In this document: piece after piece, positions 2,635 to 63,975 of the stretch | Position numbering within the stretch: the stretch's first letter is position 1 | Layout of the letters: every line of letters begins with the position of its first letter | NCBI RefSeq assembly: GCF_029227915.1 | Contig: NC_079880.1 | Span: 9,389,501 to 9,453,500, forward strand | Reading direction: 5' to 3' | DNA: 64,000 bases | Source: Hydractinia symbiolongicarpus | Taxonomy: Eukaryota; Cnidaria; Hydrozoa; Anthoathecata; Hydractiniidae | Notes under the pieces: generated by a model | The model's database searches: none | Seen by the model: the letters and a program-made list of their open reading frames with translations, nothing else | Told to the model about the DNA's origin: nothing | Program-made: the position numbers and the translations under genes

Positions 2635-3450
2635 TCAGCCCCCCAAAGAAGACCTTTTTACTGATGTATATCTTAACAATTGTACAACAAGGAAGTCACC
2701 CCAATTAGAGATCTGAGTTTCAATTGTGGCCTCTTGATGCAATGAACACTGGGGGCAGAACCACTTGTTGTAGAAATTTGTTAAATTATTTGTTAAATTA
2801 TTGGCTTGCACGTTGGTAAAATTAAAATTAAATCCTTTTGTTCCCTGGAAGTGGAGAAACAACAGAATTTGCATGAAGTTGTTGTAGTCGCAGTTACTGA
2901 AAGTAGATTGTCAACCAAAGGGGAAGATCCAATAAGTTCGACAAAAACAACCTGAAGGATCTCGGGCACATATTGTTGGTGATTGTGATAAAACGCGTTA
3001 TTGTTAAGAGGATGCATTCTGTTTTGCAGAGCTCGTAAGAAATTGAAAGGATCAATCGTTGAACGAGAGCGATTCAGTAGCGACTTATTAAGGACTATAA
3101 ACTTTACTAGAGAAGATAACAGGGAGGACTCTGATGGTAATCGAGACCAAAGTCTTGGAATAACCGTTAATGCTTGCAAAATGAAGTTTGCGTAGCATGT
3201 GTTTCCCTTGTTTATCAAACCAGCGTGGACGATGCTCACTTTTTGTTTAAGTTCCTGGCTAAAGGTATGGTGTTCCGTGGGTTTGGATGTCAGAGATGGG
3301 TGAGGATGGACTATTAATGGATTTGGTAACAGACGACGAATTTTCATGAGGTACACTATTCTTTGGCCTTAGAAATGTTGGCGGACTGCAGTGGGTAAGA
3401 TCTTGTGACCACTGTGGTGAGTCTCGTGCAATCCAAATGCAAAAGGATGC
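2635..3450 (-). pseudogene. Fragment of USP-bearing LINE (end of RLE plus N-terminal USP)
   Basis: Read on the minus strand, this matches 54300-55120 and 60304-61124, the junction between the LINE endonuclease and its ubiquitin-specific protease domain. It has the Cys box 'GLINKGNTCYANFILQAL', the following 'NHQQYVPEILQVVF' (QQD changed to QQY) and the zinc-ribbon strands, and then stops before the His box, so it cannot be an active protease. At 3388-3390 (minus strand) this copy has TGC (Cys) where the two tandem copies have TGA, so the endonuclease end reads straight into the USP region in one frame. Frameshifts occur later. Both ends are truncated, and it sits near the possible gypsy LTR. 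Confidence 0.85.
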
Positions 3451-3454
3451 TTAT

Positions 3455-38147: not shown

Positions 38148-38689
38148 ATGTCGATTATTGATCCGCTTAGTTGTAGTTTTGTGAAAATAGGATCGTACGT
38201 CATTTTGACAACAGATACACCACTACAACAAATTCAGAGCGAAAATAAAAAAGGATTTAATGGTCGTGTTTATAACTACAGGTACAGGGAAATAAAGCAG
38301 AAATATGGTGACATTGTTAACTCTGTCGACTACAAGACCTTTATACGCAATTTTCCAAAATTAGTCGAAAATGTCCGCGGATTAGCAAAACGTAACCCGA
38401 CCTTGAGAGACCAGTTATTAGAATGTTTTTCTCTGCAAGCTTGGTTCAATTTAACACCAGAGAAAAAAAAAAAACACACTTTCCAAAACTGCCTTGGTTG
38501 TCAAGAACAGCACCTACAACAGCTGACGTTATTTCCCGTTAAAAAGGCGTCGTTAAAAATTAAAGCCGAAAAAAGTGGTTTGTTCCAGAAAAAAGAAATT
38601 AAGGTTTGTTGTTTTATCATTAAATTTAAATAATACAATAAAATAAATAGGCTACATACATATAAAAACTATTTTTTAACGTATATATA

Positions 38690-41199: not shown

Positions 41200-43395
41200 G
41201 CTGTATGCGTACTTGATGACGAGTTTGCATCTAAGTACAATACGTCATTTACATCCCAGTTTCAAACGTTGGTACTGGAGAAAGAAGAAAACGAAAAACG
41301 TGATCTTTTGCGCACCGTTAAAAAAGATATTGAGAATCAATGGTCAGAAACAGCAGTTGAACGGTAACCAGATTACATTAGTAACCAATTTCGACATCTA
41401 AAACAGTAAACACACAAGAATTAACGACCTTAACTTATAATTTGCTGTTTAAATTTTTAACATTTCAGTACTTTGCAGTAATTCTAATAAGAATGTTGAT
41501 ATCATAAAAACTGTCGAATGTGCGTTAATTTAATTGCAATATTTTTTATAGCGCCTATGGAGTCCCTGTCTCCCTAAGACACAGAAACAAACTGCGTTTA
41601 CATTCAAGCTTTGAAAATAAGGTTGATGCTATAAATCGCACAAATGAAAATGTCGCAAAAAAAACTCAGGTAAATAATGTTCTAAACTAATTGTATACAA
41701 TCATAAAATGGCACTTTATATATGGGTAATGTACGCTTTTTGTAGGGCTTAAAACGACCATACGATCATACTGGACCACTGGAAAACTTCCAGTGGAACA
41801 AAAAAGAGTGTATGGAGGAAGTCCAGGGCTATGCAGACGGACACAAAATTAACTTTGCCGATCTAGCAAGGCGACATAAACTAAGAAATATGAACGGTCA
41901 GTATACTTGGCAAAATGTTTTTAACAATTTATTTCCAGCGCAAGCAAAAATTATGTCTTTTTGACATAAGAAATTCAAAATTATTAAGGCATGTAATAAT
42001 TTATTTATTATCAACGACTTTAATATTTATTTATATGCTATTTAGGGTCACTGCCAAGAAATCATGGACAGGTCATGAAAAAACTCCTATCGTTTAGCGG
42101 GTGAAGGCGAAAAAAACGCAGGTATATATGAAACAAACTTCATTTATCTTGATGTTTAAAGTAGTTTCGTGAGAGACATATTAATTGTACAATTTTTTTA
42201 AAGACTTTACATATTTAGACTCAACATCAACAACTTTAAGGATATTTCCCTACCAGTGGATGCAACGAATGACAAAGTATTTGAGACATTAAAAGGGAAA
42301 ATTTTGAATGGAGAATACTCACTTGGTGAACTTCTAATTCCACAAAATTTCACCAGGGTGGTTCTAAAAGAAAACAAAATTATGGAGGAAACAGTGCAAG
42401 TGAGTGGACGAAAAATGTCACTAAAGAAAATACGGGAAGACATGCTATAAAAACATCTACCCTTCATGAGATTTAGGTTATTATCTCACTGTTTGATCCT
42501 TTTAGCAGTCCTTTATTTTCAATAATTTTGGGCTAGTGGCTAGCTTGCACAATTTCTTTTATCTTTCAGGAGAAATAATGAATGTTAAGGTTAACCTATT
42601 GATAAGTCTAAAAAATTTCAAAGATCTTAATAAACATTTTTTTGTTATTAGGTCAGATGCTGATTACGACAACATGTCGAAAGATGACGTTATAAAACAT
42701 TTAAAAAGAATTGGAGAATACAATTCTGAAAGCTGTTTTAAGAAATTAAAACATTCTTTGAAATGTTTTGAAAGACGACGTCACTTAATATTTTGGCATG
42801 ATGGATCCTCGATTGCTAGTCATAGTCACCTTTTAATGCTTGTGTCATGCATGTACGATCCTGCTTTGTTCCTAACCGACGAAGAATATTATTTAAATAC
42901 CAATATAAGAATAAATGTACAAGCCATTGTGGAAAAACCGGAGCTTTACCTCTTGGCAAGATGCCCTTCCACAGATCAACAACTTCTATATTCGAATGAA
43001 CGTATTAAGGACATCATGGCCATGGAAGAAAGCATAGGATATGACATTATCGATGTTATGCGTTTCTTTAAGGGTGATAGTCCTGCAGCTTCATTTTAAT
43101 CAGGTCAGCAGAAAGGTGGAAATTACTTTTGCTTCTCGTGTCCGGTGGATGCAGATTGTGTTGCTAGTCTCGTACATACCTTCAATTTAAAGCATCTTTC
43201 TCTACAAGATCGTATCAGATCGTATCAAAATTTTCTTGTGATCTTCCTGCAAAAGAATTAAGCCATTTGTTGCAAGCAGAAATGCATGGCATTCAACGAC
43301 TTCCGGCATTGGTGTTTGGCAAACACAATTGCTCGTTGTCAGAACTTAACTTAGAAATATGAAGTGTTGAACAATGAGCCCCTACATGATGTATC

Positions 43396-46345
43396 AAATC
43401 ACATACATAAAAACTGATGTTGCAAAAAAATTACACCATCTTCTAACACAATATTTTAACTTCCTTGTAGAGACAAAAACAACCTCACCGAGTGTTCTTG
43501 GTATAACAAAGAAAGTATTCTTGAGGAACAAAACTACACACCGCAAACCTCTACCAACACCAAAACTAACGAATCTACTTGAGGACATCAAAATGGAGGA
43601 GTTTAATATTAGTGAATTCGCCACACAGCCAACTGTTTCGCTAATCACGACCTCCACAAAATCAAACAGCAAACCAACACTTAACACTAAAAGAGACGTT
43701 GACGAAATAGAACAATACATTTTAAACACAAAGCGCCACCTAGATACGAGTACGAACAAAGAAAACAAAAAGACCGACTATATTGATGAGACAAAAAAGC
43801 TCTTAGATTATAATCGGCAATTGCAGATTCTCGAAATGCATCTCGCTGCTGGGACGGTTCCCTTTGGGCTAAAAATCCAGGTTCGCTCCACTATGAGTTT
43901 ACCTGCTGAATTAAAAAATGAATGGAATGCCACCGTGCATTCATGTAGCAATACCTTGCTGCAAATTCTAATAAAGCACCATAGAAACAATGTAAAAAAG
44001 TGCAAAGAGGAGAGAGAGTCTTTGAAAAAGGAATTCTCTTCAGACGAACTCAACAATTTAAACAAATTATGCACACAACAACACAACGAATCGCTTACAT
44101 TGAGAAACAATAAACTGAAAAGGAAAAACAGTAACCAGACTGATTTCCATGACACACCGCGAACAAGACCCTTTGTACAACAAAGCAAACGTCAACCTAA
44201 TCAAACCAGCTCAAAGAACCTAAAAAACCAACCGCCTCATCAGCGAAACCACAACCCATGACAAGATACCAATTGGGAAACATTAAAACATGCTCAACAA
44301 ACTATAATATGAACATTAATTTTAACCAAAGGAAAAACGTTGTTAAAAAAAGTTTTTATAGAAAAATAAAAATGAAAACTTTAAACTCACTAGTTGTAAA
44401 TTTATCTCACCTCAATTTATCCAATGCGGATATATCTGTTCTCAATAAAGGACTTAAGTACGTCCCAACACCCTCAGCTGTCAACACATGTCAGCCTGTG
44501 AAAAATGCTTTTGCGAACTTGCGCAATCGTATGGCAACAAGGTATTTTTTTATTAACAAACCACACCCCCGCAATGAGCTCCATAGAAAATCTAACTGGC
44601 TTGCACCTGAACCACAACATAAAAACCTACAAAACTTTTTTGCCCTGGTAAAAAGAGATTTATGCGATTTTACCACTAAATTTCCCCTGTTGAGATGCCA
44701 GAGTTAATCTTACTCGTAGCAAAAGGAAAAGTCTATTAAAATTATCAAAAAACCGAAATATAGTGATTAAAAAAGCTGATAAGGGTGGTCGTGTAGTCAT
44801 CATGAGTAAAGATGACTACATTAGAAAAGTTTATGACCACCTCTCCAACAACAAATATTACGCAAAAATGAAAACTGACCCTAGCAAAGACCTTAAAACT
44901 AATATCAACAGTTTCATAGAAATTTCATAAAAGTTTCATAAAATTTCAGTTTAATTTAAATCATAGAAGTTTCATAAAAATGTCGCCACAACGTAAACAA
45001 AAACACGGCCAAATTTATAACACCACCTGAAAACACTGGAATGCCCCTATTTTACATACTGCCAAAAATTCATAAGGATGGCATTCCAGGACGACCAATA
45101 GTTTCAGCCGTTAACTCTATAACTGAAAATATTTCAGAATTTTTAAATCTTTGTCTGCAACCTCTCCTATCAAAATTACAATCCTATGTAAAGGAAACAA
45201 AACATCTAATACAAAGGTTACAAACCATACCAGCACAAAATAAACACGTTTTACTTGTATCAGCAGACGTATCCTCACTTTACACCAATATCCCTCAACA
45301 AGAAGGAGTTGATGCGTGTATTCATTTCATTAGAAAATACAGAAACACACTGCCTTCATTTACACCCAATGAACATGTAATACGAACGTTGTTTTCGTTT
45401 ATACTGGAAAATAACTATTTCATGTTCCTAAATGAAATATATCTGCAGTTACTTGGCACAGCCATGGGTACGAAGGTGGCACCACCATACGCATCATTAT
45501 TCCTGGGTCTTTTTGAGCAGGTGTTTATTTTCGATAAGTTTCCAAATTTAATCACTATATTTCTTCGTTTCCTAGACGACATATTCTTCATATGGGAACA
45601 ACAGTGAAGAAGAACTACACAAATTTTTCATATATCTAAATTCAATACACCCTACAATAAAATTCACCTATGAATATTCAACAGAGGAAATTAGTTTTTT
45701 GGATACGACTATCTATTTAGATAAACGCTCGAGAAAACTCAAAACCAAATTATTTATAAAACCAACTGACAGCAGAGCACTATTACATTTTACGTCGTAT
45801 CACCCTCACCATACCAAAAGGGGTATAATTTATTCGCAAGCACTCCGCTATCGCATGATAACAAGTCAAGATAGCATTTTAAAATGTGAGCTCGATGAAC
45901 TTAAAAGTATTTTGCTGACCAGAGGATACAAAGGTCGGCTTGTTGATGAAATATTCGAGAAAATCGCCAAATTAAAGCAATCAGACGTACTTTCTAACTC
46001 CACGCACAAGTTTAATAAAAAACGAATACATTTCAGAACCGCTGACAATAGTGGTGATGCTGACAGAGAGCAAAACAAAGATAAACACATTCTACCTTTT
46101 ATTTTACCTTACCACGAAAAATTTACAACGCTTAAACGAATACTACACAAGTATTGGTTTATAATTGAGAGCGACCCTGCTCTGCGACTCGTTTTTCCAA
46201 CCAAACCATTCTTGACTTTCACCAAGCATAAAAATTTACAGGAATATTTAATCAGAGCAAAGATGAGATCTGCTGACCACTGCCTTTCATTATAATTTTT
46301 ATAATTTTTACGTTTATTCGATTTGTATAACATTCAGTTTATTAA
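43396..46345 (+). pseudogene. Penelope-like element copy 2 (best preserved)
   Basis: ORF1 is open to 44261: 'KKLHHLLTQYFNFLVETKTT', 'RDVDEIEQYILNTKRHLD', a Glu/Lys-rich coiled-coil-like segment ('NVKKCKEERESLKKEFSSDE') and a basic tail. The next ORF starts at 44258, overlapping in ATGA. It runs to 44707, where an extra T (shared with copy 3, absent from copy 1) shifts the frame. RT continues at 44761 ('IKKADKGGRVVIMSKDDY') and 45041-45607: 'LFYILPKIHKDGIPGRPIVS', 'VSADVSSLYTNIPQQEGV', 'QLLGTAMGTKVAPPYASLF', 'RFLDDIFFIWEQ'. After another indel, 45699-46295 gives 'FTSYHPHHTKRGIIYSQALR' and the PLE-typical end ('PFLTFTKHKNLQEYLIRAKM'). No GIY-YIG domain follows, so it resembles endonuclease-lacking or truncated PLEs. 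Confidence 0.9.
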
Positions 46346-47977: not shown

Positions 47978-49455
47978 TAACGCATGTTGTTCAAACATTT
48001 TACCATTGGTATATCCGATAGTGGTATTAATTCATTTTTTTTAAATAAACGCTCTTGTTTATTTCGATGTACATATCTCACAAACAATACATAAAAACTG
48101 ATGTTGCAAAAAAACTACACCATCTTCTAACACAATATTTTAACTTCCTTGTAGAGACAAAAACAACCTCACCGAGTGTTCTTGGTATAACAAAGAAAGT
48201 ATTCTTGAGGAACAAAACTACACACCGCAAACCTCTACCAACACCAAAACTAACGAATCTACTTGAGGACATCGAAATGGAGGAGTTTAATATTAGTGAA
48301 TTCGCCACACAGCCAACTGTTTCGCTAATCACGACCTCCACAAAATCAAACAGCAAACCAACACTTAACACTAAAAGAGACGTTGACGAAATAGAACAAT
48401 ACATTTTAAACACGAAGCGCCACCTAGATACGAGTACGAACAAAGAAAACAAAAAGACCGACTATATTGATGAGACAAAAAAGCTCTTAGATTATAATCG
48501 GCAATTGCAGATTCTCGAAATGCATCTCGCTGCTGGGACGGTTCCCTTTGGGCTAAAAATCCAGGTTCGCTCCACTATGAGTTTACCTGCTGAATTAAAA
48601 AATGAATGGAATGCCACCGTGCATTCATGTAGCAATACCTTGCTGCAAATTCTAATAAAGCACCATAGAAACAATGTAAAAAAGTGCAAAGAGGAGAGAG
48701 AGTTTTTGAAAAAGGAATTCTCTTCAGACGAACTCAACAATTTAAACAAATTATGCACACAACAACACAACGAATCGCTTACATTGAGAAACAATAAACT
48801 GAAAAGGAAAAACAGTAACCAGACTGATTTCCATGACACACCGCGAACAAGACCCTTTGTACAACAAAGCAAAGGTCAACCTAATCAAACCAGCTCAAAG
48901 AACCTAAAAAACCAACCGCCTCATCAGCGAAACCACAACCCATGACAAGATACCAATTGGGAAACATTAAAACATGCTCAACAAACTATAACATGAACAT
49001 TAATTTTAACCAAAGGAAAAACGTTGTTAAAAAAAGTTTTTATAGAAAAATAAAAATGAAAACTTTAAACTCACTAGTTGAAAATTTATCTCACCTCAAT
49101 TTATCCAATGCGGATATATCTGTTCTCAATAAAGGACTTAAGTACGTCCCAACACCCTCAGCTGTCAACACATGTCAGCCTGTGAAAAATGCTTTTGCGA
49201 ACTTGCGCAATCGTATGGCAACAAGGTATTTTTTTATTAACAAACCACACCCCCGCAATGAGCTCCATAGAAAATCTAACTGGCTTGCACCTGAACCACA
49301 ACATAAAAACCTACAAAACTTTTTTGCCCTGGTAAAAAGAGATTTATGCGATTTTACCACTAAATTTCCCTTGTTGAGATGCCAGAGTTAATCTTACTCG
49401 TAGCGAAAGGAAAAGTCTATTGAAATTATCAAAAAACCGAAATATAGTGATTAAA
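47978..49455 (+). pseudogene. Penelope-like element copy 3, 3' truncated
   Basis: Nearly identical to copy 2 over ORF1 (48055-48945, 296 codons) and the next ORF (48942-49391, again ATGA overlap), and shares its frameshifting extra T. It stops at GTGATTAAAAA (49455), where the SINE-like repeat starts; all RT motifs are missing. It keeps the 5' block 'ACGCATGTTGT' that copy 2 lacks. The closeness to copy 2 suggests a local tandem origin. Confidence 0.85.
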
Positions 49456-50549: not shown

Positions 50550-51098
50550 TCAAGCTTCTGATGACGTCACAATAAGGCGGTCATCACAGAAAATTACTGC
50601 TCTATTGTTGCAATGTATCCACCTGTGAACCATTTGGTCGAAGGCTATGGTTGTGTAGTGACCATTATTTAAGTTGCCGCAATGGTTGATAATAGCCCTT
50701 AATTGAAAATTTTTACAAAATTTCACTTCTCCATCTACGCTAAAAGGTATGGAAAGGGTAGTAATACGAGAGGCAATTTTTGACACAAGGCCGTTGGCAC
50801 TGGCAAAACGTTTTAGCTGTAAAATGAGATGGGAACCGCACGACACTACCTCTTTTTCAACTAGAGCAGTTTGATGAGCGTTGCAAACATGGCAGAAGTA
50901 GGCATTGGTGTCTGACAACTCCTCGCTTTCAAAGAAATTATCTAAGGAAGATTGTAACGTAGGGTGCAGAGAAAGTTGGATGCATGGTGCTATAACTTCT
51001 AAGGAGCTGGTAATATGACATGAATTGCAAGTGGTTGATGTCCGTAGAGTTATCGCCACATTGTTTTCTTTGCTGCTGTATCTGACAACAATTTTTTT
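50550..51098 (-). pseudogene. USP-LINE copy of a divergent lineage: C-terminal USP half
   Basis: Open minus-strand frame of about 180 codons. Zinc-ribbon cysteines are seen as 'TTCNSCH' and 'YFCHVCNA', then the USP-typical strand 'HLILQLKRFA', the His box 'INHCGNLNNGHYTTI' and 'WIHCNNRAVI' (Asn/Asp box, here N-N). The Cys box and everything upstream are missing (5' truncation at 51098, where a YqaJ-type sequence in the opposite orientation starts). Its sequence differs widely from the tandem copies, while the order of USP motifs and the downstream tail modules are the same. That suggests the domain has been kept in this LINE family over a long time. As a truncated copy it has no protease function. 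Confidence 0.8.
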
Positions 51099-51500
51099 AT
51101 GAATTCTGAAGGAAAGTTGAAAAAAGACCACAAGTATTACTATCAAGTACAGTTTCAAATGTTTGTTTTTAATTGCAAAAGCTGTTTTTTAATTGTGTGG
51201 ACTTCACATTGGTTACATGCTGTTGAGGTTTTGTTTGATGTGAACTTCATCAATTCGAACATGGACAAAATGGAACAGTTTTATCTCCAAAACATTATAC
51301 CAGAGTTATTGACAAGAAGACTAAAGGGTAAAGTTGTTAAAGCTCCACCTTCTCCTTCTCAAGAAAAATTGTATTGTCTCTGTCAGTCTGAATACAATCC
51401 TAATGACGAAACATTTATTGGTTGTGACTCCACATTTTGCAAGTATGAATGGTTTCATTTGAGCTGTGTTAAATTGAAAAGAGTCCCAAAAGGTTCATGG
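51099..51500 (+). pseudogene. YqaJ-type exonuclease C-terminus plus ING-like PHD finger (partial)
   Basis: Reads 'KKDHKYYYQVQFQMFV', 'FLIVWTSH', 'KMEQFYLQNIIPELLTRRL', the end of a YqaJ-like (lambda-exonuclease-fold) domain as found in cnidarian multi-copy genes. A PHD finger follows: 'YCLCQSEYNPNDETFIGCD', 'CKYEWFHLSCVKLKRVPKG', with the ING-type pattern C-x-C...GCD..C..EWFH..C. The final Cys pair is missing because a tRNA-SINE replaces it after 'GSWW' (51500); the frame then runs through the SINE to 51629. PHD fingers of this type usually bind histone H3 tails. Only the last exon is visible; the 5' side is cut by the minus-strand LINE. The left border of the tandem duplication (51457) falls inside the PHD. 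Confidence 0.75.
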
Positions 51501-51502
51501 TG

Positions 51503-51655
51503 GCACCGTAGATTAGTGGTTATAGCTCTCGTACTCTGTGCGGGAGACCGGGGTTCGATTCCTCTTGACGGCGATTCAACATGGGCGACTAAATGTTACC
51601 ATAGCCCTGGGTTAACCCAAGATATGTGAGGGAAATACCAACTTCTTACGGATGT
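51503..51655 (+). repeat. tRNA-derived SINE, unit 1
   Basis: Pol III promoter boxes are intact: A box TAGATTAGTGG (51509-51519) and B box GGTTCGATTCC (51552-51562), 33 bp apart. Between them CTCGT/GCGGG can form an anticodon-like stem. The body follows, including GGGTTAACCC. The exact 3' end is unclear; LINE coding sequence starts by about 51667. Confidence 0.72.
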
Positions 51656-51666
51656 AAAAGGTCGAA

Positions 51667-54375
51667 TAACTTTATTGCGCCGAGCTGAAAGGTCTAGAAA
51701 AAAACGCCATTAATTCAAAAAAGCCCAGACCGCCTTTAAGAACAATCCATACAAGGCAGGAAAAGATCTTCTTGACCCGAAGTGCAAATCAGTTTTAAGG
51801 GTCGAACAAGAAACGCTGGATAACTTTAAACTTGAATCAGTTAAGGACAAATTGTATGATGTACCTTTAGGTAATCTAGATGGGTTATCATCCACTCCAC
51901 CTCTTTTGAAATCGTTTCCAGTTTCTGTCTTTAAATATGAAGATTTTATGAAAGTTCTTGTCACTCGGCGAAATGGTTCTTCCCCAGACATCAATGGGAT
52001 ACCTTATAAAGTTTATAAAAAATGTAATAAAGTAAATACTGTTTTGTTTAATGTTTTTAAGTCTTGTTTCAAAAATTGTGTTGTCCCTATTCAATGGCGT
52101 TGTGCTCGTGAAGTTTATATTCCCAAATCAAAAACTCCTATGGAGTCTAATATTAAACACTTTCGATCTATCGCATTATTAAATGTCGAAGGCAAGCTTT
52201 TATTTAGCCTTGTATCAAGGCGATTAGAAGCTCACATTATACATAATAACATATTCATTAACACGTCGGTTTAGAAGGGTTGTATGGAGAAAGTCCCAGG
52301 ATGCTGGGAACACATGTCAATGGTTTGGTCTGCACTTAAAGAGGCCCGGGCCAAAAAATCACACCTTGCAAATATATGGCTGGATATTGCAAATGCGTAT
52401 CCTTCAATTCCACACAAGCTTATATTTTTTGCACTGGAAAGGTATGGAGTCCCTCAGAGTTGGATATCATTCATTAAGTCATACTATGTTGGTTTATATA
52501 GCAAATCGTTTTCTTTGTCTGCACCAAGCAACTGGCACAAGCATATGCGAGGTATTTTTGCAGGTTGCACTCTTTCCATCATTTTGTTTCTTGCTGGTAT
52601 AAACAATATTCTTGAATACACTATTGCGGCACCGGCCCCAAATTATATTACTTCTAAAAACGTGCCCCTTCCTTGATATGGATGATATCAACCTAATGTC
52701 ATCCTCTGTCTGTGGAGCGCAAAGCCTCCTTTCCAGGTGCGTCACTGCTTTAAAATGGGCTGGCATGAGTTTTTGCCCTCGTAAGTCAAGGAGCATAATC
52801 CTTATAAAAGGTAGATCTGTAAACTCCACACCTTTTTCTGTGTCTCACATCTCGTCACAAACCGACTTCTCTTCATTCATCCCGTCAATCCATTCATCGC
52901 CAGTTTGTTTCCTCGGTCGCATTATTGATGGTACGACTTCAGATGCTAAAGCAATCAACGAGCTAGATAATAAGCTAATAACCGGTCTTACAATCATATA
53001 CGGTTCGTGTTTCGTAGGGACCCAAAAACTATGGATTTTGCAAAACCTTCTAATTCCTCGAATCCAATGGCTAATTCTTATTTATGAAGTTCCAATATCT
53101 CGGGTTACAAGGCTGGAGTAGAAGATCTCAACTGTCATTAGAAAATGGCTATCTCTGCACAATTCCACGTCAAATATTTGCCTATATAGCTCCTCCTCAC
53201 CTTGTCCAATGCCAATTAAGAGCTTGACGTCATTGCTTACATGCTCTAAAATAAGTGGTCATTTACTTTTACGCGATTCCAAAGATCCTCTTGTGTCTAA
53301 CAGTGCACCTACTTTGAAAGTTGGCATGTGGAAAGTGGACAACGCAGTAAGAACAGCAGAGGCAGAGGTGAAAATAAAGTCAGTCGTGGGAACTCCCCAG
53401 TATGGCAAAGCAGGCCTAGGGATTAACAAATCTTTTAAAATTCCGATTTCAAAACAGTGCTATGCGTATCGTAAATTAATATCGAACACAGCTTAAGATA
53501 TCGATGAGGAAGGCAACATGGGTAGAGCATTGCAGTTGCAAGTGCAGGGTCAGTGGACGAGATGGGAAAATCTCAAAAAACGATCTATCTTGGAATTCCA
53601 TTTTTGCCATGTCCCCACACTTGCTTTCCTTCTGTCTTGCTTCTACTTACGATGTTCTTCCCTCACCTAGCAATTTAAAGCGCTGGAACGTTTGTACTGA
53701 ATCTGCTTGTGCCTTACGTTCCAATCAAGTATGTACAACAGCGCATATTTTAGGCGCTTGCAAGGTTGCTCTATCACAAGGAAGGTTCACTTTCCGACAC
53801 GATGCTGTGCTTCGTGGGCTCCTGTTAAGTCTAGAGCGTTTTTCATCTGAAGTTGTCCCGGAAACGAAAAAGCACCTTAAAGTGTCATTTGTAAAAGCAG
53901 GTAGCTATTCATCCGCTAAAAGATCAAAACCAACTGGTCTATTCACCATGCTAGTGACTGGGTGATGTTAGCAGATCTGAATGAAGGATTTGTGTTTCCT
54001 GGCCATATTGCAATCACATCCCTCAGGCCAGACATTGTAATATACTCAAATTGTTCTAAGCGCATCATCATTATTGAACTTACTTGTCCTTGAGAGGAAA
54101 ACATGGGATCCTGGCATTCCACCAAGCTTTTCAAATACTTCCCTTTGGTCGAGGTAATACGTAGCAACGGGTGGTTTCCGCATCTTTTTGCAGTAGAAGT
54201 GGGTGCTAGGGGCTACTCTTTAAGGTCTCTAACTTGCTGTCTAAAAAGCCTCGGTTTCGCTAGCAAATCTGCGTTTTTAACCGCCCGCAAGCTTGGCAAT
54301 ATAAGCATGAAAGCATCCTTTTGCATTTGGATTGCACGAGACTCACCACATTGGTCACAAGATCTTACGCACTGA
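51667..54375 (+). pseudogene. RLE-type LINE (R2 superclade) RT and endonuclease, unit 1
   Basis: Starts inside the ORF ('LLRRAERSRKKRH', 'NNPYKAGKDLLDPK'), so it is 5' truncated. RT: 'RRNGSSPDINGIPYKVYKKC', 'FRSIALLNVEGKLLFSLVSR', 'KGCMEKVPGCWEHMSMVWSA', 'IWLDIANAYPSIPHKLIFFA' (first Asp), 'MRGIFAGCTLSIILFLAG', 'DMDDINLMSSS' (catalytic DD, usually x-ADD or MDD), 'VCFLGRIIDGTTSDAKAI', 'KLWILQNLLIPRIQWLILIY'. Then 'QLQVQGQWTRW', 'STYDVLPSPSNLKRW', a damaged knuckle 'CALRSNQVCTTAHILGACK' (second Cys is Arg), and the restriction-like endonuclease ('SLRPDIVIYSN', 'IIIELTCP', 'AVEVGARGYS'). Stops at 52272 (TAG for Gln), 53119, 53493, 54093 and 54373, with frameshifts near 52675, 53575 and 53960. 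Inactive. Confidence 0.88.
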
Positions 54376-55359
54376 AGTCCGCCAACATTGCCACGACCAA
54401 AGGATAGTATACCTCATGAAAAATCCTCGTCTGTTACCAAATCCATTAAAAGTCCATCTTCAGCCATCTCTGACATGCCAAAACCCACGGAACACCATAA
54501 CCTTAGCCAGGAACTTAAACAAAAGGTGAGCATCGTTCACGCTGGTTTGATAAACAAGGGGAACACATGCTACGCAAACACCATTTTGCAAGCATTAACG
54601 GTTCTTCCAAGACTTTGGTCTCAATTACCATCAGAGTCCTCTTTGTCATCTCCTCTAGTAAAGTCTATAGTCCTAAATATGTCACTACTGAATCGTTCTC
54701 GTTCACCAATTGATCCTTCCAATTTCTTAGGAGCACTGCAAAACAGAATGCATGCTCTAAACAATAACGCGTTTTATCACAATCACCAACAAGATGTGCC
54801 CGAGATCCTTCAAGTTGTTTTTGACGAAATTATTGGATCTTCCCCTTTGGTTGACAATCTACTGTCTGTAACTGTGACCACAACAACGTCATGCAACTCC
54901 TGTTGTTTCTCCACTTCCAGGGAACAAAAGGATTCAATTCTAATTTTACCAACGTGTAAGTCAATAGCAGACTTTTTTAACAAATTTTTACAACCTCAAG
55001 AACTTCTAGGTGACAACAAGTGGTTCTGCCCCCAGTGTTCATCGCAAGAGGCCACAATTGAAACTCAGATTTTTAATTGCGGCGACTTCCTTGTTGTACA
55101 ATTGTTAAGATACACATCAGTAAATGGGTCTTCTTTTAAAGACAACAAGTTAGTCAATTGCTTACCTAAAAGACATCATGTCTTAAAGGTAGCATCTAGT
55201 CATTTTAGAAGAAGCTTTGCAAGGGGGTTAGATTTTCTTATCTGGTCTTCGTGGTGTTACGCCCACGCATATTACCCCAGTTATGACAGGCTGGTACTGT
55301 CATTAGGCAGGTCCACAGCAACAATTATCTGTGTAAGGCTGAGTGTTGGAGCTCCATAA
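54376..55359 (+). pseudogene. USP (peptidase C19) domain of the LINE, unit 1, His box deleted
   Basis: Same frame as the endonuclease but after a TGA (54373-54375). ORF from ATG 54388: Cys box 'GLINKGNTCYANTILQAL' (Cys at about residue 61), 'HQQDVPEILQVVFDEI', zinc-ribbon pairs 'CNSCC' and 'CPQC', 'GDFLVVQLLRYT'. At 55197 a 477-bp deletion relative to unit 2 removes the His and Asn/Asp boxes, and the frame runs on into tail sequence to 55359. Without the His box it cannot be a protease. Confidence 0.88.
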
Positions 55360-55940
55360 CACATGTGGAAAGCTACAGCCAGGGTCACAAGTCCTGGCGC
55401 GCAGATAGTTGTTTGCTTCTTAAACACATTCTCTAAAGAATAGTTTTAAATTTATCCGTTTAAGGATATTCACGTTATGATAAGTTTTTTTTATCTCATT
55501 TGTACCTATTCAATTCATTTTGAATTGCTTTAATATTTATTGTTTAGTGTTGTGTTCTGTCGCTGTTGTATTTTTCTGCCTTTTACGGTCAATGTTTTTA
55601 GGAAATCCTTGCAAAAAGGGGGATTTTGCTTTTTCGAAAAATCTCTAGAGGGTTGCAACCTCTAACTATAGTAGAAGCAGCTGTCATTAGACAAGAATTA
55701 TCATTACAGCTAGCTGTTTTGTCACCTCATTATCACTGTGTGGGCCGTTGGATGTTGCCGGGAGTTGTCTAGTAGAGCGCGGGCCCTAATTGGGTCTGCG
55801 TCGTTCAAAATGAGCATTAAATACTCTAGGACTCTCCATCTAAGCCATGGCCCCTCCTGGAAATAACAGACAGGGTATATCCCTCGATATTTGTGAGGCT
55901 AGCCATGTGAAATATGCACATCTATCTATCTATCTATGGT
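55360..55940 (+). other. LINE 3' UTR and (ATCT)n end, unit 1
   Basis: Non-coding. Holds one tail module (55219-55283 is its start, inside the run-on frame) and ends in GCACATCTATCTATCTATC at 55917-55936, a likely 3' microsatellite terminus of the LINE. Confidence 0.6.
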
Positions 55941-56699
55941 ATTGTCCCTCGTGTCGAAAGGCCAGAAAACAAAAGGTATCTCAACACAGTCAGTGACATG
56001 ACTATAAACGTCAAACCGGCTATTTTTATAGCCACATCTGTCTAGGTTAAAATGACTGCTGCGGGAGAGTTTGTTTTCACTACAGTAAATCGCGCATGCA
56101 CAGAAAATTACCGTCAGTGATTAACCCGGATCCAAGAATGAGCCCATAATCTACACTCGTCAAAAGAAAGTCCAGTCTTAGACGAAGTGTGTGTAATGAT
56201 AATACTTGGGTAGCAATTGTGTAGAGGATTACTTAGATTGTGGACTATTAAATGTAATTTGGGTGCGGTAGCCTCAGGCAACCAAATCAAAGCCTCTTCT
56301 GTGAGAGTTTGACTGCAAAAAGTCCGTATTTCCCGTGCCTGTTCTGCTACACGATTTTGTGTATTACTGATCTGCATCATTGTCGTCCTGTTATCGCCCG
56401 CGTTTTACTTAAAGGGGCACTCCAGTGAAAAAAAAATATTTGAAAAAAATGTTATTTTTATAAGACAATACATAAATATGTCAAAATAAACCTTTTACAA
56501 TCGTTAAAAATCTTTATTTATACCTTAATCGCGTCCGTAAACATCTTCAATTTCAAATAAATTTGCAAGGTCGCGTAAAGTCGAGAGGACTAGGTCCGAA
56601 TAAATTAGCATACGTCACATCGTGCAAAAAGTCCGTGAGCTCAGCAGCACGCCTTCTAAAAGTTTTGTTTACTTACTGTTTACATTGTTCGTTGATAAG
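55941..56699 (+). other. Upstream region of the P2X7-like gene, unit 1
   Basis: Between the LINE end and the first P2X7-like exon. Contains TTAAAGGGGCACTCCAGTG at about 56409, a phrase I associate with promoter-near repeats. A minus-strand ORF (56114-56380, 88 codons) is duplicated in unit 2 but has no motif. Confidence 0.4.
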
Positions 56700-57473
56700 A
56701 TGTCTTGTAATAATGACGAAGAATATAACTTAGAAAGCTCAGAATCGGATAATTCTCTTCATGAAAAAGACTTTACAAAGCTACAGCCATACGAATTTGA
56801 ACCTCTTGTGTCTGACGAGGAAGAAGTTAGTAACGGTGTAGAAAATGACGAGGTTTCTTTTACTGATGCAGAGCCACGTACGGGTAATGCAAATTGGTGT
56901 GAATGTGGAAATTGTTGAGCAATGGAAACCGATACTGAAAGCGTGTGCTGTGTCGAGTCAAACGAAATTCCTGATGAGTTTTTCCAAGGTAGGTAGGATA
57001 TATACTGCAAATATAATTTTTTTCTAAGCGAAATTTTCCTTTTTAAACAAATAAAAAATATATTTCATCGCTTTTCTTTTACATTCTTTTCGTCAAAAAC
57101 TTTATCTTTTGCTTCAATAAAATAATCTTTCATCACTTTTTTTTTACTTCACAAGCCAATTTATTTTTATTTCACGGTTCAACAATCTAATTCCTCCGCA
57201 TGCGCTTTTTTTTGCACACAAATGCAAAGAAATCTTATGTAATGTTACATTTTCTCCGTGATGGAGAACATTGAAATGCGTGATCGAAAGATCGAATAAG
57301 GTTCGTGTGGAAATGATAAGTTAGTAAAACGGGGGTATAAATATTGTATAATTGAAAATCACTCTTATCATAGGTCATAAATGCGTTACAGAAGCTGCTG
57401 ATTTTCAAGTGGTTGTTTTGACAAAAGCTGTTTTAGAAACTGCGTTATCTGCATTGCATGATTTGAGCTGTGT
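56700..57473 (+). pseudogene. P2X7-like cysteine domain gene, exon A and truncated exon B (unit 1)
   Basis: Exon A 56700-56988: acidic start ('MSCNNDEEYNLESSESDNSL', 'YEFEPLVSDEEEVS'), then the P2X7 C-terminal-like motif 'NWCECGNC' and, after an in-frame TGA (56916-56918), 'AMETDTESVCC'. Donor GTAGGT; acceptor at 57372-57373. Exon B begins at 57374 in matching phase ('HKCVTEAADFQVVVLTKAVL') but at ATTTGAG (57461-57467) jumps into PHD-finger sequence of unit 2. The gene therefore loses the rest of exon B. In this family the Cys residues likely bind zinc. Many cnidarian P2X7-like genes are multi-copy, and the host or element origin is open. Confidence 0.72.
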
Positions 57474-57506
57474 TAAATTGAAAAGAGTCCCAAAAGGTTC
57501 ATGGTG

Positions 57507-57659
57507 GCACCGTAGATTAGTGGTTATAGCTCTCGTACTCTGTGCGGGAGACCGGGGTTCGATTCCTCTTGACGGCGATTCAACATGGGCGACTAAATGT
57601 TACCATAGCCCTGGGTTAACCCAAGATATGTGAGGGAAATACCAACTTCTTACGGATGT
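57507..57659 (+). repeat. tRNA-derived SINE, unit 2
   Basis: Identical in layout to the unit 1 SINE: A box 57513-57523, B box 57556-57566. Confidence 0.72.
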
Positions 57660-57670
57660 AAAAGGTCGAA

Positions 57671-60379
57671 TAACTTTATTGCGCCGAGCTGAAAGGTCTA
57701 GAAAAAAACGCCATTAATTCAAAAAAGCCCAGACCGCCTTTAAGAACAATCCATACAAGGCAGGAAAAGATCTTCTTGACCCGAAGTGCAAATCAGTTTT
57801 AAGGGTCGAACAAGAAACGCTGGATAACTTTAAACTTGAATCAGTTAAGGACAAATTGTATGATGTACCTTTAGGTAATCTAGATGGGTTATCATCCACT
57901 CCACCTCTTTTGAAATCGTTTCCAGTTTCTGTCTTTAAATATGAAGATTTTATGAAAGTTCTTGTCACTCGGCGAAATGGTTCTTCCCCAGACATCAATG
58001 GGATAACTTATAAAGTTTATAAAAAATGTAATAAAGTAAATACTGTTTTGTTTAATGTTTTTAAGTCTTGTTTCAAAAATTGTGTTGTCCCTATTCAATG
58101 GCGTTGTGCTCGTGAAGTTTATATTCCCAAATCAAAAACTCCTATGGAGTCTAATATTAAACACTTTCGATCTATCGCATTATTAAATGTCGAAGGCAAG
58201 CTTTTATTTAGCCTTGTATCAAGGCGATTAGAAGCTCACATTATACATAATAACATATTCATTAACACGTCGGTTTAGAAGGGTTGTATGGAGAAAGTCC
58301 CAGGATGCTGGGAACACATGTCAATGGTTTGGTCTGCACTTAAAGAGGCCCGGGCCAAAAAATCACACCTTGCAAATATATGGCTGGATATTGCAAATGC
58401 GTATCCTTCAATTCCACACAAGCTTATATTTTTTGCACTGGAAAGGTATGGAGTCCCTCAGAGTTGGATATCATTCATTAAGTCATACTATGTTGGTTTA
58501 TATAGCAAATCGTTTTCTTTGTCTGCACCAAGCAACTGGCACAAGCATATGCGAGGTATTTTTGCAGGTTGCACTCTTTCCATCATTTTGTTTCTTGCTG
58601 GTATAAACAATATTCTTGAATACACTATTGCGGCACCGGCCCCAAATTATATTACTTCTAAAAACGTGCCCCTTCCTTGATATGGATGATATCAACCTAA
58701 TGTCATCCTCTGTCTGTGGAGCGCAAAGCCTCCTTTCCAGGTGCGTCACTGCTTTAAAATGGGCTGGCATGAGTTTTTGCCCTCGTAAGTCAAGGAGCAT
58801 AATCCTTATAAAAGGTAGATCTGTAAACTCCACACCTTTTTCTGTGTCTCACATCTCGTCACAAACCGACTTCTCTTCATTCATCCCGTCAATCCATTCA
58901 TCGCCAGTTTGTTTCCTCGGTCGCATTATTGATGGTACGACTTCAGATGCTAAAGCAATCAACGAGCTAGATAATAAGCTAATAACCGGTCTTACAATCA
59001 TATACGGTTCGTGTTTCGTAGGGACCCAAAAACTATGGATTTTGCAAAACCTTCTAATTCCTCGAATCCAATGGCTAATTCTTATTTATGAAGTTCCAAT
59101 ATCTCGGGTTACAAGGCTGGAGTAGAAGATCTCAACTGTCATTAGAAAATGGCTATCTCTGCACAATTCCACGTCAAATATTTGCCTATATAGCTCCTCC
59201 TCACCTTGTCCAATGCCAATTAAGAGCTTGACGTCATTGCTTACATGCTCTAAAATAAGTGGTCATTTACTTTTACGCGATTCCAAAGATCCTCTTGTGT
59301 CTAACAGTGCACCTACTTTGAAAGTTGGCATGTGGAAAGTGGACAACGCAGTAAGAACAGCAGAGGCAGAGGTGAAAATAAAGTCAGTCGTGGGAACTCC
59401 CCAGTATGGCAAAGCAGGCCTAGGGATTAACAAATCTTTTAAAATTCCGATTTCAAAACAGTGCTATGCGTATCGTAAATTAATATCGAACACAGCTTAA
59501 GATATCGATGAGGAAGGCAACATGGGTAGAGCATTGCAGTTGCAAGTGCAGGGTCAGTGGACGAGATGGGAAAATCTCAAAAAACGATCTATCTTGGAAT
59601 TCCATTTTTGCCATGTCCCCACACTTGCTTTCCTTCTGTCTTGCTTCTACTTACGATGTTCTTCCCTCACCTAGCAATTTAAAGCGCTGGAACGTTTGTA
59701 CTGAATCTGCTTGTGCCTTACGTTCCAATCAAGTATGTACAACAGCGCATATTTTAGGCGCTTGCAAGGTTGCTCTATCACAAGGAAGGTTCACTTTCCG
59801 ACACGATGCTGTGCTTCGTGGGCTCCTGTTAAGTCTAGAGCGTTTTTCATCTGAAGTTGTCCCGGAAACGAAAAAGCACCTTAAAGTGTCATTTGTAAAA
59901 GCAGGTAGCTATTCATCCGCTAAAAGATCAAAACCAACTGGTCTATTCACCATGCTAGTGACTGGGTGATGTTAGCAGATCTGAATGAAGGATTTGTGTT
60001 TCCTGGCCATATTGCAATCACATCCCTCAGGCCAGACATTGTAATATACTCAAATTGTTCTAAGCGCATCATCATTATTGAACTTACTTGTCCTTGAGAG
60101 GAAAACATGGGATCCTGGCATTCCACCAAGCTTTTCAAATACTTCCCTTTGGTCGAGGTAATACGTAGCAACGGGTGGTTTCCGCATCTTTTTGCAGTAG
60201 AAGTGGGTGCTAGGGGCTACTCTTTAAGGTCTCTAACTTGCTGTCTAAAAAGCCTCGGTTTCGCTAGCAAATCTGCGTTTTTAACCGCCCGCAAGCTTGG
60301 CAATATAAGCATGAAAGCATCCTTTTGCATTTGGATTGCACGAGACTCACCACATTGGTCACAAGATCTTACGCACTGA
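57671..60379 (+). pseudogene. RLE-type LINE RT and endonuclease, unit 2
   Basis: Same domain order and same breaks as unit 1: TAG at 58276, frameshift near 58679 just before 'DMDDINLMSSS', TAG at 59123, TAA at 59498, frameshift near 59580, lost knuckle Cys in 'CALRSNQVCTTAH', frameshift near 59965, TGA at 60097 inside the endonuclease ('ELTCP' then stop) and TGA at 60377. One difference from unit 1 is Ile-Thr-Tyr for Ile-Pro-Tyr in the RT entry motif ('DINGITYKVYKK'). All breaks predate the duplication. Confidence 0.88.
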
Positions 60380-61411
60380 AGTCCGCCAACATTGCCACGA
60401 CCAAAGGATAGTATACCTCATGAAAAATCCTCGTCTGTTACCAAATCCATTAAAAGTCCATCTTCAGCCATCTCTGACATGCCAAAACCCACGGAACACC
60501 ATAACCTTAGCCAGGAACTTAAACAAAAGGTGAGCATCGTTCACGCTGGTTTGATAAACAAGGGGAACACATGCTACGCAAACACCATTTTGCAAGCATT
60601 AACGGTTCTTCCAAGACTTTGGTCTCAATTACCATCAGAGTCCTCTTTGTCATCTCCTCTAGTAAAGTCTATAGTCCTAAATATGTCACTACTGAATCGT
60701 TCTCGTTCACCAATTGATCCTTCCAATTTCTTAGGAGCACTGCAAAACAGAATGCATGCTCTAAACAATAACGCGTTTTATCACAATCACCAACAAGATG
60801 TGCCCGAGATCCTTCAAGTTGTTTTTGACGAAATTATTGGATCTTCCCCTTTGGTTGACAATCTACTGTCTGTAACTGTGACCACAACAACGTCATGCAA
60901 CTCCTGTTGTTTCTCCACTTCCAGGGAACAAAAGGATTCAATTCTAATTTTACCAACGTGTAAGTCAATAGCAGACTTTTTTAACAAATTTTTACAACCT
61001 CAAGAACTTCTAGGTGACAACAAGTGGTTCTGCCCCCAGTGTTCATCGCAAGAGGCCACAATTGAAACTCAGATTTTTAATTGCGGCGACTTCCTTGTTG
61101 TACAATTGTTAAGATACACATCAGTAAATGGGTCTTCTTTTAAAGACAACAAGTTAGTCAATTGCTTACCTAAAAGACATCATGTCTTAAAGGTAGCATC
61201 TCACCCAACTGACGATGTGTCTTTCAACAACAAGTATAACTTGGTTGCTACCATTAACCACTCAGGTACATTAAAAGCAGGTCATTACTGGGCCTTCATT
61301 AAGGACCAACAAAACACCTGGTTCAAATGCAATGATCGCTGTATTTCTCAAGTAGACACATTCCACTTGAATAATTCTTCGTCATACATACTTTTCTTTT
61401 CCAGAAATTAG
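60380..61411 (+). CDS. USP (ubiquitin-specific protease) domain of the LINE, unit 2, open and complete
   Basis: ATG at 60392 gives 339 residues with no internal stop. USP boxes, by residue: Cys box 'GLINKGNTCYANTILQAL' (catalytic Cys61), QQD box 'NHQQDVPEILQVVFDEI' (133-147), zinc-ribbon pairs C169/C172 and C214/C217, 'CGDFLVVQLLRYT' (231-243), His box 'INHSGTLKAGHYWAFIKD' (His298) and 'WFKCNDRC' (Asn314/Asp315). At about 340 residues it is near the minimal size of a USP catalytic core. USPs remove ubiquitin from proteins. In a LINE it could be a domain of the polyprotein acting on ubiquitin in the host cell, or, less likely, a self-processing protease. It is in frame with the endonuclease, parted by a TGA (60377-60379) that is TGC in the copy at 3388-3390. 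Whether it is translated now is unknown. Confidence 0.88.
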   Translation, partial: SPPTLPRPKDSIPHEKSSSVTKSIKSPSSAISDMPKPTEHHNLSQELKQKVSIVHAGLINKGNTCYANTILQALTVLPRLWSQLPSESSLSSPLVKSIVLNMSLLNRSRSPIDPSNFLGALQNRMHALNNNAFYHNHQQDVPEILQVVFDEIIGSSPLVDNLLSVTVTTTTSCNSCCFSTSREQKDSILILPTCKSIADFFNKFLQPQELLGDNKWFCPQCSSQEATIETQIFNCGDFLVVQLLRYTSVNGSSFKDNKLVNCLPKRHHVLKVASHPTDDVSFNNKYNLVATINHSGTLKAGHYWAFIKDQQNTWFKCNDRCISQVDTFHLNNSSSYILFFSRN

Positions 61412-62420
61412 CTTATTTGTATGTCACACAACAAATGGGGGAGGGAATCCATGACCCTAGCGGTTTTATTTACCCCATTTGATTTATGTTGGTCAGTGCA
61501 CCGTGAAACCGGAGTTTGCTCGCTCCTCTCTTTGTATAGAGACACTGTAAGAAGCACAGCAAGGGGGCTTGATATCATATCTTGTCTTTGGGCTTAACGA
61601 TCCCACTTATTACCCCAGTCCAGTAGGGAGGCAGAGTTTGCTCACTTTGCTTTCAGGATTGACAATCCTGCTGCCCTTAGTCATTTTAGAAGAAGCTTTG
61701 CAAGGGGGTTAGATTTTCTTATCTGGTCTTCGTGGTGTTACGCCCACGCATATTACCCCAGTTATGACAGGCTGGTACTGTCATTAGGCAGGTCCACAGC
61801 AACAATTATCTGTGTAAGGCTGAGTGTTGGAGCTCCATAACACATGTGGAAAGCTACAGCCAGGGTCACAAGTCCTGGCGCGCAGATAGTTGTTTGCTTC
61901 TTAAACACATTCTCTAAAGAATAGTTTTAAATTTATCCGTTTAAGGATATTCACGTTATGATAAGTTTTTTTTATCTCATTTGTACCTATTCAATTCATT
62001 TTGAATTGCTTTAATATTTATTGTTTAGTGTTGTGTTCTGTCGCTGTTGTATTTTTCTGCCTTTTACGGTCAATGTTTTTAGGAAATCCTTGCAAAAAGG
62101 GGGATTTTGCTTTTTCGAAAAATCTCTAGAGGGTTGCAACCTCTAACTATAGTAGAAGCAGCTGTCATTAGACAAGAATTATCATTACAGCTAGCTGTTT
62201 TGTCACCTCATTATCACTGTGTGGGCCGTTGGATGTTGCCGGGAGTTGTCTAGTAGAGCGCGGGCCCTAATTGGGTCTGCGTCGTTCAAAATGAGCATTA
62301 AATACTCTAGGACTCTCCATCTAAGCCATGGCCCCTCCTGGAAATAACAGACAGGGTATATCCCTCGATATTTGTGAGGCTAGCCATGTGAAATATGCAC
62401 ATCTATCTATCTATCTATGG
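61412..62420 (+). other. LINE 3' UTR with two tail modules and (ATCT)n end, unit 2
   Basis: Tail module 1 at 61558-61622 (GCAAGGGGGCTTGAT ... CTTGTCTTTGG ... CCACTTATTACCCCAGT). A diverged module 2 at 61702-61765 (GCAAGGGGGTTAGAT ... CTGGTCTTCG ... ATTACCCCAGT). The end is ATCTATCTATCTATC at about 62402-62417. Such tail structures may be recognised by the RT for target-primed priming; that is inference. Confidence 0.65.
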
Positions 62421-63180
62421 TATTGTCCCTCGTGTCGAAAGGCCAGAAAACAAAAGGTATCTCAACACAGTCAGTGACATGACTATAAACGTCAAACCGG
62501 CTATTTTTATAGCCACATCTGTCTAGGTTAAAATGACTGCTGCGGGAGAGTTTGTTTTCACTACAGTAAATCGCGCATGCACAGAAAATTACCGTCAGTG
62601 ATTAACCCGGATCCAAGAATGAGCCCATAATCTACACTCGTCAAAAGAAAGTCCAGTCTTAGACGAAGTGTGTGTAATGATAATACTTGGGTAGCAATTG
62701 TGTAGAGGATTACTTAGATTGTGGACTATTAAATGTAATTTGGGTGCGGTAGCCTCAGGCAACCAAATCAAAGCCTCTTCTGTGAGAGTTTGACTGCAAA
62801 AAGTCCGTATTTCCCGTGCCTGTTCTGCTACACGATTTTGTGTATTACTGATCTGCATCATTGTCGTCCTGTTATCGCCCGCGTTTTACTTAAAGGGGCA
62901 CTCCAGTGAAAAAAAAATATTTGAAAAAAATGTTATTTTTATAAGACAATACATAAATATGTCAAAATAAACCTTTTACAATCGTTAAAAATCTTTATTT
63001 ATACCTTAATCGCGTCCGTAAACATCTTCAATTTCAAATAAATTTGCAAGGTCGCGTAAAGTCGAGAGGACTAGGTCCGAATAAATTAGCATACGTCACA
63101 TCGTGCAAAAAGTCCGTGAGCTCAGCAGCACGCCTTCTAAAAGTTTTGTTTACTTACTGTTTACATTGTTCGTTGATAAG
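62421..63180 (+). other. Upstream region of the P2X7-like gene, unit 2
   Basis: Copy of 55941-56699, with the same GGGGCACTCCAGTG phrase at about 62895 and the same unassigned minus-strand ORF (62595-62861). Confidence 0.4.
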
Positions 63181-63975
63181 ATGTCTTGTAATAATGACGA
63201 AGAATATAACTTAGAAAGCTCAGAATCGGATAATTCTCTTCATGAAAAAGACTTTACAAAGCTACAGCCATACGAATTTGAACCTCTTGTGTCTGACGAG
63301 GAAGAAGTTAGTAACGGTGTAGAAAATGACGAGGTTTCTTTTACTGATGCAGAGCCACGTACGGGTAATGCAAATTGGTGTGAATGTGGAAATTGTTGAG
63401 CAATGGAAACCGATACTGAAAGCGTGTGCTGTGTCGAGTCAAACGAAATTCCTGATGAGTTTTTCCAAGGTAGGTAGGATATATACTGCAAATATAATTT
63501 TTTTCTAAGCGAAATTTTCCTTTTTAAACAAATAAAAAATATATTTCATCGCTTTTCTTTTACATTCTTTTCGTCAAAAACTTTATCTTTTGCTTCAATA
63601 AAATAATCTTTCATCACTTTTTTTTTACTTCACAAGCCAATTTATTTTTATTTCACGGTTCAACAATCTAATTCCTCCGCATGCGCTTTTTTTTGCACAC
63701 AAATGCAAAGAAATCTTATGTAATGTTACATTTTCTCCGTGATGGAGAACATTGAAATGCGTGATCGAAAGATCGAATAAGGTTCGTGTGGAAATGATAA
63801 GTTAGTAAAACGGGGGTATAAATATTGTATAATTGAAAATCACTCTTATCATAGGTCATAAATGCGTTACAGAAGCTGCTGATTTTCAAGTGGTTGTTTT
63901 GACAAAAGCTGTTTTAGAAACTGCGTTATCTGCATTGCATGATTTGAGAGGAGACACTTTAGAATTAAAAAATGA
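63181..63975 (+). CDS. P2X7-like cysteine domain gene, exons A and B (unit 2), continues past the window
   Basis: Exon A 63181-63469 and exon B 63855-63975 join in phase (G|GT = Gly) to give '...EIPDEFFQ-G-HKCVTEA' and 'ALHDLRGDTLELKNE', then a donor GTAAGT at 63976. Cys pattern: 'WCECGNC', 'ESVCC', 'HKC', matching the C-terminal cytoplasmic-domain family of P2X7 receptors that occurs in many stand-alone cnidarian genes. The next exon, expected to carry a 'YRxxAYRQ' type motif, lies outside the window. The in-frame TGA between 'CGNC' and 'AMET' (63397-63399) is shared with unit 1; if real, the gene is a pseudogene despite good splice sites. Confidence 0.68.

Follow-up and report, generated by a model that had tools for sequence, protein, structure and literature searches.

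A clade of R2-superclade LINEs whose proteins end in a ubiquitin-specific protease domain, with decayed copies in Hydractinia symbiolongicarpus

The window, the whole 64,000-nucleotide stretch of Hydractinia symbiolongicarpus DNA analyzed here, carries decayed copies of a LINE that ends in a ubiquitin-specific protease (USP, peptidase family C19). Comparison with related proteins indicates that the USP is inherited together with the reverse transcriptase (RT) and restriction-like endonuclease (RLE) encoded in the same ORF, that its catalytic and zinc residues are kept and that it has a predicted USP fold. The explanation that we consider best, and to which we give an even chance, is an old R2-superclade LINE clade the single protein of which ends in a USP that would remove ubiquitin from that same protein in cis.

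Results

The window is eukaryotic and transposon-rich. The element in question is the second of two tandem copies (copy 2), and its features are as follows.

57,634..61,411 (+): USP-LINE copy 2, decayed and 5'-truncated, in the order RT, CCHC knuckle, RLE, USP (tblastn with nine relatives, frames and stops, Pfam)
57,718..59,125 (+): reverse transcriptase, split between two frames and interrupted by stops (RVT_1 matches of its pieces, 1.7e-6 and 0.017, each below the curated cut-off)
57,718-58,278 (+): RT piece 1, no Pfam match of its own
58,279-58,677 (+): RT piece 2 (RVT_1 1.7e-6, just below the curated cut-off)
58,607-59,125 (+): RT piece 3, in the other frame (RVT_1 0.017)
59,484..59,969 (+): CCHC knuckle region, read in the third frame (zf-RVT match of 0.0019, under the cut-off; P0009 842-967 at 56%)
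about 59,978..60,345 (+): restriction-like endonuclease with a PD...E...E motif (in-frame reading and alignment to relatives)
60,380..61,408 (+): USP (C19) domain in an open ORF (UCH 2e-32, profile positions 1-254 of 254)

The original prediction had placed a LINE with a complete USP catalytic core at 57,671-61,411. The observation was confirmed, with a slightly earlier start: tblastn alignments of family proteins begin at about 57,634-57,643 and LINE homology runs from there to the stop codon at 61,409-61,411. Frame reading and Pfam agreed with the prediction that RT, knuckle, RLE and USP lie in one orientation. The endonuclease and USP do share a frame, as had been proposed, and that frame contains two stops, at 60,095 (in the RLE) and at 60,377 (just before the USP ORF). 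The claim of a complete catalytic core also held: the UCH match covers the whole profile, and we located the Cys box near 60,572, the His box near 61,283 and the Asn/Asp box near 61,331-61,336. Among PDB entries the domain matched USP8 at 8.7e-16. The USP is the only part of copy 2 above its Pfam cut-off, as frameshifts and stops in the element keep the RT and knuckle pieces from reaching theirs. Given these broken frames and stops the RT-RLE part of copy 2 is a pseudogene, with the USP ORF open. Relatives are 52-66% identical to copy 2 from the RT through the end of the USP (P0009 192-1453 against 57,643-61,405, in four pieces), P0009 residues 192-845 aligning to 57,643-59,593 at 62-66% identity (tblastn). 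As about 190 N-terminal residues of the relatives are absent, copy 2 is 5'-truncated, a frequent condition of LINE copies.

Three further pieces of USP-LINEs lie in the window, one of them within a segmental duplication.

51,457..63,948 (+): tandem segmental duplication with copies 1 and 2, units 51,457-57,467 and 57,461-63,948 (self-blastn)
51,630..55,197 (+): copy 1, the same element in the first duplication unit (99.97% over 3,741 bp; tblastn; UCH 2.3e-12 on the cut ORF)
2,645..3,452 (-): further copy, RLE-side end joined to USP, truncated at both ends and frameshifted (88.7% over 831 columns; UCH 8.7e-8 on 2,796-3,368)
50,550..51,188 (-): remnant of a divergent second USP-LINE, C-terminal two thirds of the USP (UCH 2.2e-10; 31% to the USP at 60,380)

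The duplication is of about 6.5 kb. Positions 51,457-55,197 equal 57,461-61,201 at 99.97% identity over 3,741 bp and positions 55,197-57,467 equal 61,678-63,948 at 100%, the USP of copy 1 being cut at 55,197. The single tandem duplication seen by self-blastn rules out that the LINE inserted independently near 51 kb and near 57 kb, and we read copies 1 and 2 as one insertion that was later duplicated; being 99.97% identical, they were counted as one. Better evidence within the window for the RLE-USP junction is the minus-strand copy at 2,645-3,452, which repeats the junction of copy 2 in that the last RLE-side residues run into the USP. Relative to copy 2 it has 21 nonsynonymous and 18 synonymous differences in 160 USP codons, a pN/pS of 0.36 (one-sided binomial p 0.0016 against a simple expectation), suggesting that the USP was under selection until the copies decayed. 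The divergent piece at 50,550-51,188 was closest (47%) to P0039 among 191 proteins compared, and P0039 has both an RLE motif and a USP.

Relatives were collected by three protein searches. The first, with the RLE-USP part as query, gave 208 proteins of which the best 120 were analyzed, and the second, with the RT-RLE of P0009 and the USP omitted, gave 430 of which again the best 120 were analyzed. The third, with the P0163 USP, gave only three proteins, P0163 included, and no host USP to serve as outgroup. Among the matches listed for these searches 77 of 193 proteins combined, within a single ORF, a complete USP with the RT [AG]F[ML]DD motif. Pfam found RVT_1 and UCH in all 20 full-length members scanned and, at E 0.001, no family other than UCH, UCH_1, RVT_1 and zf-RVT.

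Among the matches listed for the RLE-USP search, 32 reach 1,190 residues or more. Conservation was scored on these, a set for which retention of the USP was selected because the query contained it. The USP Cys, His and Asp and the four zinc Cys residues were kept in 32/32, the residue preceding the Asp being N in 27 and D in five. The RLE PD and both E residues, as well as Cys/His at four of the knuckle positions, were likewise kept in 32/32, and the RT DD was found in 31, the remaining protein having a gap. Across all 120 matches listed for this query, many of them fragments, the catalytic Cys was seen in 116 (gap in the other four), the His in 97 (gap in 20, a different residue in three) and the Asp in 98 (gap in the other 22). 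The proteins thus have the RT, RLE and knuckle of an RLE-type LINE together with the catalytic core of a C19 protease. Pairwise identity was 0.33 for the USP, 0.53 for the RT and 0.48 for the RLE; by this measure the USP evolves faster than the other two domains, which also fits relaxed constraint. Conservation of the catalytic residues is silent on the substrate.

The history of the USP was followed on an RT-RLE tree built from 121 proteins plus a row for the window, the latter consisting of the RT segment alone (quick search without bootstrap). Five of the 120 matches to the USP-free query (P0029, P0031, P0045, P0140 and P0144) were left out as too short. The tree split 114 rows from eight outgroup proteins without USP, including one of the fish Gouania, with support of 100. 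The main clade had 75 rows: 69 with USP (complete and cut-off domains both being scored as USP), five cut before the USP, and the window row. Hence, 69 of 69 scorable rows had the domain. Main-clade rows recovered by the USP-free query gave the same picture among the matches listed, 64 with USP and four cut (64/64 scorable). The sister clade (39 rows) was mixed, with 17 proteins having a USP, 19 lacking it, one having another long tail and two being cut. The 19 proteins without USP end 1-47 residues past the matched RT-RLE region, and they have the RT and RLE motifs in 19/19 and the knuckle pattern in 18/19. The original prediction had named two outcomes that would speak against it, a family consensus without the USP and a USP belonging to a separate element inserted once next to the LINE. 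The opposite was found on both counts, the first from the main-clade rows (public proteins rather than a genomic consensus) and the second from the RT and USP lying in one ORF.

Parsimony on the RT-RLE tree required a minimum of four changes of USP state, equal to one gain and three losses, a count that could be one loss fewer because branching within the sister clade is only partly resolved. USP and RT-RLE path lengths were correlated (Mantel r 0.859, 0/1000 permutations, 77 proteins), and these sequence comparisons show the USP to be inherited together with the RT-RLE. A branch with support of 99 separated the 77 LINE USPs from three virus USPs used as outgroup. With virus USPs as that outgroup, one capture of the USP by the LINE clade is the simplest reading rather than proven.

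A USP that is a fragment of a host gene and merely happens to neighbor the LINE, or that is a functionless passenger, would suit the window, where an open USP ORF follows broken RT-RLE frames and a stop lies between RLE and USP; it would also suit the annotation of P0001 and other Hydractinia proteins as host genes. However, a chance host neighbor is ruled out by the intact one-ORF proteins, the co-inheritance and the further copy in the window that repeats the junction and, with the catalytic residues kept in 32/32, we leave hardly any probability to this reading as a whole. The position of the USP at the C-terminus of a large protein raised another alternative, that it processes a polyprotein by releasing itself or cleaving the RT-RLE, and some viral papain-like proteases both process a polyprotein and deubiquitinate. 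We consider this very improbable: USPs cleave after a folded ubiquitin tail, the RLE-USP linker is variable (26-447 residues, median 48, in 44 proteins) and the USP is wholly absent from 19 of the 36 sister-clade proteins scorable by USP presence. Self-processing was also not favored by the linkers themselves, only 2/44 of which have even a loose LRGG-like motif.

The two clades differ in their N-terminal zinc fingers. Of sister-clade proteins with a full N-terminus, 34/34 matched a loose C2H2/C2HC finger pattern and 33 a strict pattern, whereas in the main clade the strict pattern was found in 0/32 and the loose one in 1/32 (P0121). Thus, the fingerless lineage is the one in which the USP was never seen to be lost. 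Target recognition is the job of the fingers in R2, as described in a portion of PMC5035012. The USP could have taken over from the fingers as a targeting device, binding ubiquitinated chromatin and so picking the insertion site, and such a replacement would accord with a main clade having the USP in every scorable row and no strict fingers, and a sister clade in which fingers are universal and the USP optional. However, the pattern is one contrast of two clades, a single evolutionary event. Moreover, the eight outgroup proteins have no USP and show no finger in their first 350 residues (several are short or truncated), and the fingers may therefore have arisen in the sister clade. We regard the takeover as improbable. 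We also give only a small chance to a combined form, ubiquitin-directed retrotransposition, in which the USP would be an obligate module of an ancient LINE clade that both shields the element protein and guides it to ubiquitin-marked chromatin.

Structure models of relatives agreed with these assignments. In a structure search with the P0005 model the top three rows were R2 proteins, aligned over 701-718 columns at 18-19% identity and, together with the RLE and knuckle, this bears out the R2-superclade placement in the original prediction. With the A1 profile, R2 also gave the best RT matches within the 60 rows listed; single-sequence searches with P0138 and P0152 put L1 slightly above R2. L1 was absent among the matches listed for the A1 profile and the fold searches, the rows of which were filled by USPs, and this absence is not evidence of a different fold. 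Both models and fold searches assigned the C-terminal domain of the relatives to the USP core fold, and by prediction it folds as a USP; the model, with a pTM of 0.61, leaves its placement relative to the RT uncertain. The closest solved USPs among the matches listed were USP8, USP2, USP15, USP36 and USP21. Unlike these cellular enzymes, to which identity is 22-28%, the LINE USP is a compact core of about 290 residues that ends an RT-RLE protein.

The fold matches bear on what the USP might act upon. As structures of USP18-ISG15 and USP36-Fubi were among them, the domain could deconjugate a different ubiquitin-like modifier, such as one resembling ISG15 or Fubi, instead of ubiquitin. However, many ubiquitin-specific USPs rank alongside these two and the VIA list is topped by USP2-ubiquitin complexes, making this reading decidedly improbable. 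The main rival to action in cis is that the USP acts on target chromatin or repair proteins, deubiquitinating H2A/H2B or repair factors to let nicking, priming and second-strand synthesis proceed. The USP is directly tethered to an endonuclease that sits on target DNA, and chromatin-linked USPs, yeast Ubp8 for one, are among the profile and fold matches, but so are many others. For Ginger elements, moreover, ubiquitin/SUMO proteases have been proposed to serve repair at transposition (in part of PMC2836005). Nevertheless, we found no substrate-specific feature in the USP, and the closest solved USPs have varied substrates. We regard chromatin or repair substrates as unlikely.

Discussion

A role for the USP against ubiquitin-dependent control of the element's proteins or of target chromatin is plausible, and we infer cis deubiquitination of the element's own protein by analogy with human L1. 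LINE proteins are targets of host ubiquitin ligases; in human cells TRIM41 ubiquitinates L1 ORF2p, leading to its degradation (described in part of PMC10716122). In the preferred cis mechanism the element protein would bind its own RNA and reach the target, host ligases would ubiquitinate it as they do human L1 ORF2p and the tethered USP would strip that ubiquitin in cis. The ribonucleoprotein would thereby be kept from proteasomal loss or ubiquitin-dependent restriction until target-primed reverse transcription is complete. By carrying a complete USP the element probably comes with a countermeasure of its own to a host control system. The clade offers a direct test of whether ubiquitin removal is rate-limiting for target-primed reverse transcription, as the sister clade has intact proteins with and without USP side by side and a single Cys change would split catalysis from binding. 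If USP removal matters, the domain would be a counter-defense module in an animal mobile element.

The element is best compared with R2 (R2Bm, R2Tg, R2Pm), a single protein of which likewise combines RT, linker, CCHC knuckle and RLE. The solved R2 entries that were matched have no USP, and unlike R2 the main clade has no strict N-terminal finger. Insertion in 28S rRNA genes, a mark of R2 in the strict sense, was not seen for the window copies, Rfam giving no match in the 64 kb. Other mobile elements also carry enzymes of the ubiquitin and SUMO systems. Dualen/RandI LINEs, which have APE plus RLE, carry a deubiquitinase-type domain, but of the OTU type rather than C19, and neither APE nor OTU was matched by Pfam in any of the 20 USP-LINE members scanned. 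NeSL and Utopia are RLE-type LINEs as well. The available part of PMC4640811 gives NeSL and Utopia-1_TSP a ubiquitin-family Ulp1-like cysteine protease at the N-terminus, one that is not in all Utopia families, whereas here the protease is C19/USP and C-terminal, and Ulp1 was found in 0/20 members (Pfam, E 0.001). Among DNA transposons, Ginger1 transposases carry OTU or Ulp1 and one Trichomonas transposase_11 protein carries peptidase C19 (part of PMC2836005). These are also mobile-element proteins fused to ubiquitin/SUMO-system enzymes, but they are DNA transposases rather than LINEs, and the C19 case, as given there, is a single protein. Full-text literature searches showed no LINE with a USP among the papers listed (Repbase and Dfam were outside their scope, and an unnamed library entry may exist); the available parts of PMC7599744 and PMC12910113 are unrelated to any LINE USP. 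New relative to the known ubiquitin-protease LINEs are the other protease family, the other end of the protein and its being a lasting trait of a clade.

In bacterial/archaeal genomes and virus contigs the full-length alignment gave 80 and 20 pattern matches, none confirmed as relatives, and the USP alignment found distant USPs at four virus loci and one MAG locus, three of which served as the outgroup of the USP tree. Two relatives named as from a 'Pseudomonadales bacterium' MAG, P0051 and P0085, were taken as probable contamination. LINEs make up 4% of each Hydractinia genome according to PMC11067881, the main text of which lacks the word ubiquitin. At least three more Hydractinia relatives (P0109, P0138 and P0140) were found among the matches listed besides the top match to the RLE-USP part, a 558-residue H. 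symbiolongicarpus protein with 97% identity over the whole query region. That protein is annotated as 'ubiquitin carboxyl-terminal hydrolase 51-like', a warning for annotation in that at least one decayed or intact copy has been filed as a host gene, 'USP51-like'.

Tandem duplication and neighbouring features

Copy 1 of the USP-LINE lies in the first unit of a tandem segmental duplication of ~6.5 kb, the units of which (51457-57467 and 57461-63948) are 99.97-100% identical, the first being without ~477 bp that the second has (61,202-61,677). The duplication is either a recent event or a feature of the assembly. The duplicated segment includes the end of an ORF resembling a PHD finger, located upstream of copy 1. 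Beside the duplication, a USP-LINE from a second, divergent family has left a remnant that runs in the opposite direction. The window also contains other mobile-element pieces, and two near-identical sets of ORFs represent a further repeated element.

Features of the window
24777-25853, Helitron-like N domain (E 2.1e-63), mobile-element piece
33552-34043, DDE_Tnp_1_7 (E 7.4e-20), mobile-element piece
38680-40572, RVT_1 (E 2.4e-32), mobile-element piece
43371-44707 and 48049-49391, near-identical ORF pairs
44978-45604, weak RVT_1 (E 0.00092, under the cut-off), mobile-element piece
50550-51188, minus strand, divergent USP-LINE remnant
51048-51629, plus strand, PHD-finger-like ORF (PF00628, E 0.0069, under the cut-off)

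Relatives of the element and of its USP

Among the relatives found with a USP-free query, all 34 sister-clade proteins (within P0110-P0182) had N-terminal C2H2/C2HC fingers, whereas by the strict pattern none of 32 main-clade proteins did, a contrast that parallels the difference between these clades in USP loss. Distant USPs, 23-26% identical to the LINE USP, are encoded on three virus contigs (L001-L003) and served only as an outgroup.
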